The notes under the pieces are model-generated. The model made no database searches and was not told the DNA's origin. It worked only from the letters and a program-made list of their open reading frames with translations. Shown here in pieces: positions 59,782 to 62,018 of a DNA stretch of 64,000 nt (positions are counted from its first letter, which is position 1; each line of letters starts with the position of its first letter). The translations under genes were made by a program, and so were the position numbers. The stretch comes from Methanohalophilus levihalophilus (GTDB lineage: Archaea > Halobacteriota > Methanosarcinia > Methanosarcinales > Methanosarcinaceae), in the NCBI RefSeq assembly GCF_017874375.1, contig NZ_JAGGLK010000001.1, positions 372,001 through 436,000 on the forward strand, in the 5' to 3' direction.

Positions 59782-60378
59782 ATGAAAGTAAATTCTTTTT
59801 CACTATTACTTATCAGTGTCCTTATCTTTGGATTATTGGGCGCTGGCAGTGCTCTTGCAACCTATGATGGATACTATGTCAATTATTGCCAGTATGCAGA
59901 ATTGGACAAGACAGATCACTCCAGAACAGTTTGTCTTGGTGCCGAGTTTACCTATGATATAAGTATTGACTTTAATGAGTCAGCCGCAGAAGCCAATGTC
60001 ACAGTTCTCAGGGTGACGGATATTCTGCCCCCGGGAGTTGACTTTGTGAGCGCTACAGATGGAGGCGTATACGATGCTTCCAGACACAAGGTTTATTGGA
60101 GGTTTGAAGATCCTGATCTTCCAAAAACTCTGGGTGTCACAGTCCGTGAATCTTCCGGAGAAATTGGAACATGGCACAAAAATACTGCAATAGCTAGATT
60201 TGTAATTCTTCCGGACGGCCCCTCAGATTAGGTAGACACAGTCAGGATAGGGAAGCAGACCTGCGACTGGACAAAAGTTGTCGAATGTGAAGAAATTCCT
60301 GAATTCCCAACTGTAGCACTTCCAATAGCAAGCATCATTGGAATCGCATTCATACTACAGAGAAGGAATGAAGAGTGA
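59782..60378 (+). CDS. PEF-CTERM surface protein 1 with in-frame UAG (possible pyrrolysine)
   Basis: ATG 59782 (GGTGGT upstream; longer frame from 59638 less likely). Signal peptide KVNSFSLLLISVLIFGLLGAGSALA (cleavage after ALA; written in part). It then has the same domain as the two genes after it: TVCLGAEFTYDIS, VTDILPPGVDFVSATDGGVYDAS. A TAG stands at 60229-60231, but the frame stays open for 48 more codons. These encode the conserved Cys (KVVEC) and the complete anchor EIPEFPTVALPIASIIGIAFI-LQRRNEE. In both paralogs these elements belong to one protein. UAG read as pyrrolysine, or suppressed, would give the anchored form; otherwise the gene makes a soluble, secreted form. Confidence 0.75.
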
Positions 60379-60405
60379 GATTCGTTTCTCACTTATTTCT
60401 TATTT
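60371..60405 (+). terminator. Hairpin terminator of surface protein gene 1
   Basis: AGTGAGA, short loop TTCGT, TCTCACT with a T-rich tail (TATTTCTTATTTTTG). The stem overlaps the TGA stop at 60376-60378, supporting that the gene ends there rather than at the TAG. Confidence 0.65.
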
Positions 60406-60545: not shown

Positions 60546-61214
60546 ATGAGACTCAAGTTAGCTTTAATTTTATCAATAGTGTTAATCTTCGGAGTAGTTA
60601 CCTCCGGTTTGGCTCTTGCTGACGTCGAACCGACTTCTCCGGCAGAGGCATTTGTTACATTTGAAAAGACTGATGATCAGGACACGGTTTGTGCTGGTGG
60701 GAATTTTGCTTATAATTTAACCTTCGCTTTAGATCCATCTTTTGATGAGGTTTACCTGTTCCCATACCTGGATCCGTCCTACCAACAGGTTGTTCTCATC
60801 AACGTTACTGATTTCCTTCCTGATGGAGTCAATTTTGTCAGTGCCTCTGATGGCGGGGATTACAATGCAACCGCTCATTCTGTTTTCTGGTCATTTGAAT
60901 ATCTTCCGGAGGAAACCGGAGGGGAAGAAAAGACCTTAACTATCGATGTCACTGAAACCTCGGGCACACCCGGAATTCTCTTAGTTAACGAGGCAGAGTT
61001 GGATCTGGGAGTTTTCGCCGAAGATACTCCGGGAATTACTTCAGCTCCAAATGGTTTGGTTGAAGAATACAGACAAGTTGCTTTCCTCTTGGCTGCTGAT
61101 GAAACAAGAGTTGCAGATTGTGGGGGGGAAATCCCGGAATTTCCAACAGTTGCGCTTCCAATTGCCGCAATTCTCGGACTTGCTTTTATCTTCCAGAGAA
61201 GGAAGAATGAGTGA
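60546..61214 (+). CDS. PEF-CTERM surface protein 2
   Basis: 222 residues from ATG 60546 (GGTGG upstream; an earlier in-frame ATG at 60513 lacks a signal start). Signal peptide RLKLALILSIVLIFGVVTSGLALA (in part), one DUF11-like beta domain (TVCAGGNFAYNLTF, VTDFLPDGVNFVSASDGGDYNATAHS, KTLTIDVTETSG), a conserved Cys (VADC) and the tail EIPEFPTVALPIAAILGLAF plus FQRRKNE. Archaeosortase-type anchor. Hairpin terminator overlaps the stop. Confidence 0.85.
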   Translation: MRLKLALILSIVLIFGVVTSGLALADVEPTSPAEAFVTFEKTDDQDTVCAGGNFAYNLTFALDPSFDEVYLFPYLDPSYQQVVLINVTDFLPDGVNFVSASDGGDYNATAHSVFWSFEYLPEETGGEEKTLTIDVTETSGTPGILLVNEAELDLGVFAEDTPGITSAPNGLVEEYRQVAFLLAADETRVADCGGEIPEFPTVALPIAAILGLAFIFQRRKNE

Positions 61215-61220
61215 GGGTTG
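61155..61220 (+). repeat. 66-base repeat, copy 1 (end of surface protein gene 2)
   Basis: Identical to 61959-62024. It covers the last codons of the anchor, the stop and the first part of the terminator hairpin, beyond what protein conservation alone would keep identical. Confidence 0.85.
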
Positions 61221-61240
61221 GTTCCCTTACTCCGTTTTCT
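61207..61240 (+). terminator. Hairpin terminator of surface protein gene 2
   Basis: GAGTGAGGG, loop TTGGT, TCCCTTACTC followed by CGTTTTCTCGTTTT. The stem overlaps the stop codon. Confidence 0.65.
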
Positions 61241-61394
61241 CGTTTTACATTAAAACTCAGTTCTTCGTAAGAAATATAGTTTCTAACTTTAAGTCTCATA
61301 ATCATTATGAGACTGTCTATTTTTATTGAGAAAGTAGAAACTTATATAAACAATTAAAATCTACCGCTTAATAATATAATGATGGTGGTATAAT

Positions 61395-62018
61395 ATGAAG
61401 CTGAAATATTTGACAGGAACTCTAGTCGCCATGCTCCTAATTGGGCTTATTGGTGCCGGAACAGCAATTGCTCCCGCAGTCGATTACTATGATTTTCAAA
61501 AGACAGACGGGTTGGAAGAGATTTGTGCAGGTGAAACATTCACATATGACATTACCTACAATATCACTGATCCCTCAGTTTTAAGACCTCTTTCACTGAC
61601 TACAGCTGCTCCAACAATGCAGTACATGGGGTATATTTTTATAGATGACATTCTACCTTCGAATGTATCTTTTGTAAGTGCTACAGATGATGGAGTTTAC
61701 AATGCGAGTACTCATTCTGTAGAGTGGGATCTTGAGTACCCTGAATCAACCAAGACTCTTACCGTTACGGTCACTGAATCATCTGCTTCTACAGGTTATG
61801 TTTTATTTAATGCAGCTTATGCAGAATTTGAACCTGAAGTTCGCACGATTGCTACAATTGACACCGTTTCATCTGAACCGCAATACAGGAAAGCAGGTGA
61901 TAAGACCTTGGTAATAGATTGCCAGAAGGAGGAAATTCCGGAATTTCCAACTGTAGCACTTCCAATTGCCGCAATTCTCGGACTTGCTTTTATCTTCCAG
62001 AGAAGGAAGAATGAGTGA
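61395..62018 (+). CDS. PEF-CTERM surface protein 3
   Basis: 207 residues, ATG 61395 after GGTGGT. Signal peptide LKYLTGTLVAMLLIGLIGAG. Single DUF11-like domain with EICAGETFTYDITYN, IDDILPSNVSFVSATDDGVYNAS and KTLTVTVTESSAS; conserved Cys (LVIDC); anchor EIPEFPTVALPIAAILGLAF with FQRRKNE. Third of three tandem paralogs, each with its own promoter and terminator. Confidence 0.85.
   Translation: MKLKYLTGTLVAMLLIGLIGAGTAIAPAVDYYDFQKTDGLEEICAGETFTYDITYNITDPSVLRPLSLTTAAPTMQYMGYIFIDDILPSNVSFVSATDDGVYNASTHSVEWDLEYPESTKTLTVTVTESSASTGYVLFNAAYAEFEPEVRTIATIDTVSSEPQYRKAGDKTLVIDCQKEEIPEFPTVALPIAAILGLAFIFQRRKNE

Follow-up and report, generated by a model that had tools for sequence, protein, structure and literature searches.

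The gene of a PEF-CTERM surface protein in Methanohalophilus levihalophilus, here called P1, carries an in-frame UAG that is probably decoded as pyrrolysine by tRNA-Pyl, giving a single anchored surface protein of 198 residues. We infer both the reading of UAG in the P1 mRNA and its efficiency: tRNA-Pyl, with its CUA anticodon, would read the TAG at 60229 as pyrrolysine, and the full-length product, with its Ig-like domain and PEF-CTERM tail, would be exported by means of its signal peptide and anchored by archaeosortase C. In the host genome as a whole, UAG behaves for the most part like a 62nd, rarely used sense codon. The initial annotation had raised this reading of P1, and a complete pyl cluster together with interruptions of homologous genes by TAG but not by TAA or TGA (5/11 versus 0/227) now supports it, short of proof.

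A surface protein gene probably read through TAG

The window is the whole stretch of 64,000 nucleotides analysed here (G000:C1:372001-436000), taken from a genome of 2.12 Mb that is 98.8% complete and assembled in 5 contigs. The frame at 59782-60378 reads MKVNSF...GPSD-TAG-VDTVRIGKQTCDWTKVVECEEIPEFPTVALPIASIIGIAFILQRRNEE-TGA and stays open for 48 codons beyond the TAG (60229-60231) up to the TGA (60376-60378), in the frame and at the coordinates first described (Table 1). These 48 codons encode the last predicted β-strand, the conserved cysteine and the PEF-CTERM anchor, as in the tandem paralogues P2 and P3. The DUF11 match lies wholly before the TAG and the TIGR03024 match after it; the tail has the C-terminal PEF motif, hydrophobic stretch and basic end and scores above the curated cut-off (34.6 bits against 23; 43 bits in the paralogues). 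With Cys169 aligned as well, the parts said to be missing before the TAG are indeed coded after it. The extension has a coding score of +9.7 bits in its own frame and negative scores in the other five, and since this lies above all 398 control extensions of TAA- and TGA-ended genes that overlap no other gene, none of which exceeds 7.5, we do not regard it as a product of chance.

Table 1. Features of P1 and its tandem paralogues, in window positions
Feature	Position	Strand	Basis
P1, gene of a PEF-CTERM surface protein; 198 residues + TGA when the TAG is read	59782..60378	+	ORF, DUF11 and TIGR03024 matches, paralogue alignment
N-terminal hydrophobic helix, residues 1-26, likely signal peptide	59782..59859	+	sequence; model helix 3-26; inference
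Match to a DUF11 / Ig-like surface domain, residues 41-110	59902..60111	+	PF01345 25.9 bits vs cut-off 24.6
In-frame TAG, codon 150	60229..60231	+	sequence; alignment with paralogues
Last predicted β-strand of the domain, residues 155-167, 3' of TAG	60244..60282	+	predicted model
Cys169, pre-anchor, invariant across three paralogues	60286..60288	+	alignment
PEF-CTERM anchor, residues 172-198: IPEFPTVALPIASIIGIAFILQRRNEE	60295..60375	+	TIGR03024 34.6 bits
Hairpin containing the TGA stop 60376-60378, then U-rich sequence	60373..60394	+	folding; also in both paralogues
P2, tandem PEF-CTERM paralogue without internal stop	60546..61214	+	
P3, tandem PEF-CTERM paralogue without internal stop	61395..62018	+	

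The shared plan of the three genes is confirmed by 44-46% identity of P1 to P2 and P3, by TIGR03024 tails in all of them, and by an alignment in which both Cys169 before the anchor and the IPEFPTVALPIA tail are invariant. Aligned with the TAG stand a Leu codon (TTG) in one paralogue and a Thr codon (ACC) in the other, and TTG becomes TAG by one base change. Compared with the paralogues, the P1 tail has a pN of 0.14 against a pS of 0.59-0.80, which, on sequence grounds, shows that the tail has been under constraint, with dS so near saturation that the paralogues do not date the TAG; the tail's synonymous divergence from them may predate it. A hairpin spanning the TGA is common to all three genes (z -2.0, -3.2 and -3.8), whereas RNA folding at the P1 TAG gave nothing unusual; as proposed, the hairpin lies at the downstream TGA and not at the TAG.

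In a three-sequence AlphaFold model of P1 (mean pLDDT 70, pTM 0.57), residue 150 falls in a loop (147-153) that joins two predicted strands and is modelled with low confidence; the closest structural neighbours are β-sandwich domains of pilins and adhesins, at low TM-scores. Model and alignment together indicate that termination at the UAG would cost the protein its last strand (155-167), Cys169 and the anchor. Given that UAG behaves mainly like a rare sense codon in this genome, the residue at this position probably reflects a tolerated, neutral single-base change (TTG to TAG, for example) in a surface loop and plays no part in catalysis.

Pyrrolysine machinery and release factor

A search for the pyrrolysine genes, suggested by the initial annotation as a check, recovered pylT, pylS, pylB, pylC and pylD as a complete cluster on contig C2 of the host genome, where tRNA-Pyl with the anticodon CTA is accompanied by open frames for pylS (profile match of 384.6 bits), pylB, pylC and pylD, in that order (stretch L017). 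The PylC family PF21360 gave no match, although pylC is present by position and sequence. ARAGORN found no other amber-reading tRNA in the sampled stretches, tRNA-Pyl being the only one with CUA. Each genome has one aRF1 above the cut-off, which could terminate at UAG in competition with its reading. A PYLIS element was not matched at the P1 TAG, whereas the mtmB control matched PYLIS_1 with 102.8 bits; the element has been reported not to be essential (PMC2933860).

In three genomes of the genus, the stop codon annotated for pylB is itself a TAG (L017:5244-6299 (-) in the host, L153:14878-15918 in G003 and L206:12222-13262 in G006), as has been reported for other Methanosarcinaceae too (PMC2933860). 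The extension after this TAG is 39 codons long and lies over pylC in another frame. It is possible that the codon provides feedback of the pyrrolysine supply on PylB, or that it is a leftover true UAG stop; its occurrence in the host and two relatives suggests that some UAGs are still stops.

Use of TAG across the genome

To describe TAG usage, we drew on a sample of 873 kb in stretches, or 41% of the genome, with genes called by a simple codon-usage caller. The 811 called genes end in TAA (409), TGA (378) or TAG (24), and the 3.0% share of TAG compares with about 30% expected from base composition. Within the window the caller gives 58 genes, two of them with TAG, in agreement with the earlier count of about 60 genes and one other ending in TAG. 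An in-frame extension of at least 40 codons follows 54% of TAG stops, compared with 18-19% of TAA and TGA stops.

We then asked how often a homologue continues across the stop, using as query the last 60 residues of each gene together with the stop and as many as 40 codons beyond it, and as target 1.2 Mb from G003 and G006, two genus mates with complete genomes. A crossing was counted where the homologue had a sense codon at the site, no gap there and no stop within 15 residues. TAG was crossed in 5 of 11 cases, TAA in 0 of 132 and TGA in 0 of 95 (Fisher P = 7.6e-8); some of the TAG matches are paralogues rather than orthologues, and for phosphoenolpyruvate (PEP) synthase a separate comparison with true orthologues bore the result out. 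The reverse comparison, starting from the genus mates, gave 3/6 for TAG and 1/256 for TAA and TGA (P = 2.7e-5). Because random nonsense mutation, pseudogenes or sequencing errors would not single out TAG, they are a poor cause of such interruptions, and we take this genome-wide, TAG-specific pattern as the decisive evidence that UAG is, most likely, a sense codon here.

Other genes with an in-frame TAG

The classical in-frame TAG is present in both mtmB genes and in mttB, and plainly internal TAGs were also found in a geranylgeranyl-reductase-like protein, a histidine kinase, a β-helix surface protein and a TPD-motif protein; in the last of these, relatives hold Tyr or Leu at the site. At the TAG of a phosphatase-superfamily protein whose C terminus forms a membrane anchor, relatives have Lys or Glu, and in a LEU3-type dehydrogenase the TAG lies ten codons from the end, at a position occupied by His in the closest relative. 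Several of the other TAG-ended genes have short extensions, for which stop and sense are both possible.

In the PEP synthase (L057:15208-17616 (-)), codon 451 is the TAG; the aligned relatives show Thr, Asn, Asp or Met at this position, and both flanks are conserved. It is the sole match in the genome at E <= 1e-100, fits its equivalog model over the full length with 1214 bits and has an omega of about 0.04 on either side of the TAG. From these sequence comparisons, central metabolism appears to depend on the reading of UAG through this enzyme, and pyrrolysine may accordingly be needed even without growth on methylamines.

The phosphatase-superfamily protein and the β-helix protein are two further apparently exported proteins in which the TAG precedes a hydrophobic anchor at the C terminus (L055:2566-3978 (+) and L063:300-1814 (-)). 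An integrase/recombinase-like frame (L073:15443-17029 (-)) contains two in-frame TAGs and matched no Pfam or NCBIfam family. In the genus mates G003 and G006, in-frame TAGs occur at L154:1910-2590 (+), L207:5284-5589 (-) and L150:5204-5452 (-), and the interrupted genes resemble, by the appearance of their sequences, DNA polymerase IV, a tRNA methyltransferase-like protein and a GNAT acetyltransferase. In the citrate synthase of another relative, G007, a TAG in frame begins 178 nt from the ATG, as published for Methanohalophilus mahii (PMC3017947). Across the genus this gene (L224-L228: G007, G005, G001, G006, G004) is intact in the host and G003, and four relatives have a C-terminal fragment only; loss of citrate synthase is under way in the genus, so the published M. 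mahii amber could be an early loss too.

Distribution of the PEF-CTERM system

None of the seven genus-mate genomes has an orthologue of P1, and matches in distant genomes are at the level of the domain or the tail. Six genus mates have both flanking genes within a short stretch, without a homologue of P1-P3 there. Archaeosortase C is found in one of the eight genomes of the genus, the host (TIGR03762, 337 bits against a cut-off of 100), and strong PEF-CTERM matches within the genus are likewise confined to it. Archaeosortase C (G000:C4:40326-41132) is thus absent, with P1-P3 (window 60546-62018), from the seven other genomes, which suggests that the components of this PEF-CTERM system were gained or lost jointly. 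No internal TAG was seen in the other PEF-CTERM matches listed by the family search.

Alternative readings of the P1 codon

Clusters of paralogous surface proteins tend to hold decaying copies, and P1 could be such a copy, with the UAG as a plain stop left by a recent nonsense mutation. P1 is species-specific among the genus genomes examined, its paralogues have no TAG, six genus mates lack the cluster at the corresponding syntenic position, and the genus does lose genes, the citrate synthase fragments in four relatives being an example. The rest of the P1 frame is intact, however, with a PEF-CTERM tail still above its cut-off; interruptions of homologous genes are confined to TAG, and with tRNA-Pyl present the UAG is probably read at least in part. 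Together these points make recent inactivation quite unlikely. An error of sequencing or assembly, conceivable for a single genome in 5 contigs, should have produced TAA and TGA interruptions as well, and with 0 of 227 comparable cases we consider it extremely improbable.

A different possibility is that the UAG is read partly, according to the pyrrolysine supply, so that one mRNA yields an anchored and a shorter, released form. The position of the TAG upstream of the anchor, the aRF1 above its cut-off in every genome and the ambiguity of UAG described for M. acetivorans in a review (PMC2933860) are compatible with such a dual product, but the short form would lack strand 155-167 and Cys169 and, according to the model, probably have an ill-formed domain. 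There is neither a PYLIS match nor unusual structure at the TAG, and TAGs elsewhere, such as that inside PEP synthase, occur without any such logic, so that no special design is needed. We therefore judge two products unlikely, and the idea of regulated secreted and anchored forms in the initial annotation gained no support, given the missing PYLIS match and the loss of the last β-strand on truncation. A more elaborate version, which we hold to be very unlikely, would make the UAG a nutrient-sensing switch: with plentiful pyrrolysine the protein would be anchored by archaeosortase C, with scarce pyrrolysine it would be truncated and released or degraded, and the envelope would track the methylamine supply. 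Such a switch could extend to the anchored proteins at L055 and L063.

Significance and relation to known systems

If confirmed, decoding of the P1 UAG as pyrrolysine would bring the 22nd amino acid to the cell surface through a protein that has nothing to do with methylamine catalysis, and would back UAG as a working sense codon in the genus over a few special recodings. It would also mean that automatic annotation probably cuts genes with such a UAG short or divides them, PEP synthase among them, and labels them as incomplete or as pseudogenes.

P1 shares with MtmB, MtbB and MttB an in-frame UAG within a frame that is conserved, in a genome that carries the pyl genes, and pyrrolysine in MttB of Methanohalophilus portucalensis has been observed by mass spectrometry (PMC4928046). 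In those methyltransferases, however, pyrrolysine takes part in catalysis and orthologues share the UAG, with a PYLIS match in mtmB, whereas the P1 site is a species-specific position in a variable loop without PYLIS. Closer counterparts are lineage-specific in-frame UAGs outside methylamine metabolism, in Thg1 of M. acetivorans, where pyrrolysine was detected by mass spectrometry according to a review (PMC2933860) and is not needed for activity, and in the citrate synthase of M. mahii, whose amber codon was proposed to encode pyrrolysine (PMC3017947). Both are cytoplasmic enzymes, whereas P1 is a predicted exported and anchored surface protein; UAG as pyrrolysine outside methylamine metabolism has already been described, and P1 would add to it the new case of a PEF-CTERM surface protein.

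The host resembles archaea with a 'Pyl code' in its rare TAG, its in-frame TAGs across many ordinary genes and its complete pyl genes; it differs from them in that the TAG of pylB may still be a stop, and the TAGs reported here come from a 41% sample of the genome. In such archaea TAG reportedly serves as a general pyrrolysine codon, as described by Kivenson and colleagues in Science in 2025. Finally, P1 is like other proteins of the PEF-CTERM/archaeosortase C system in its signal peptide-like N terminus, its TIGR03024 tail and the presence of ArtC in the genome, and it is set apart from the other PEF-CTERM proteins listed by a UAG between the domain and the anchor.
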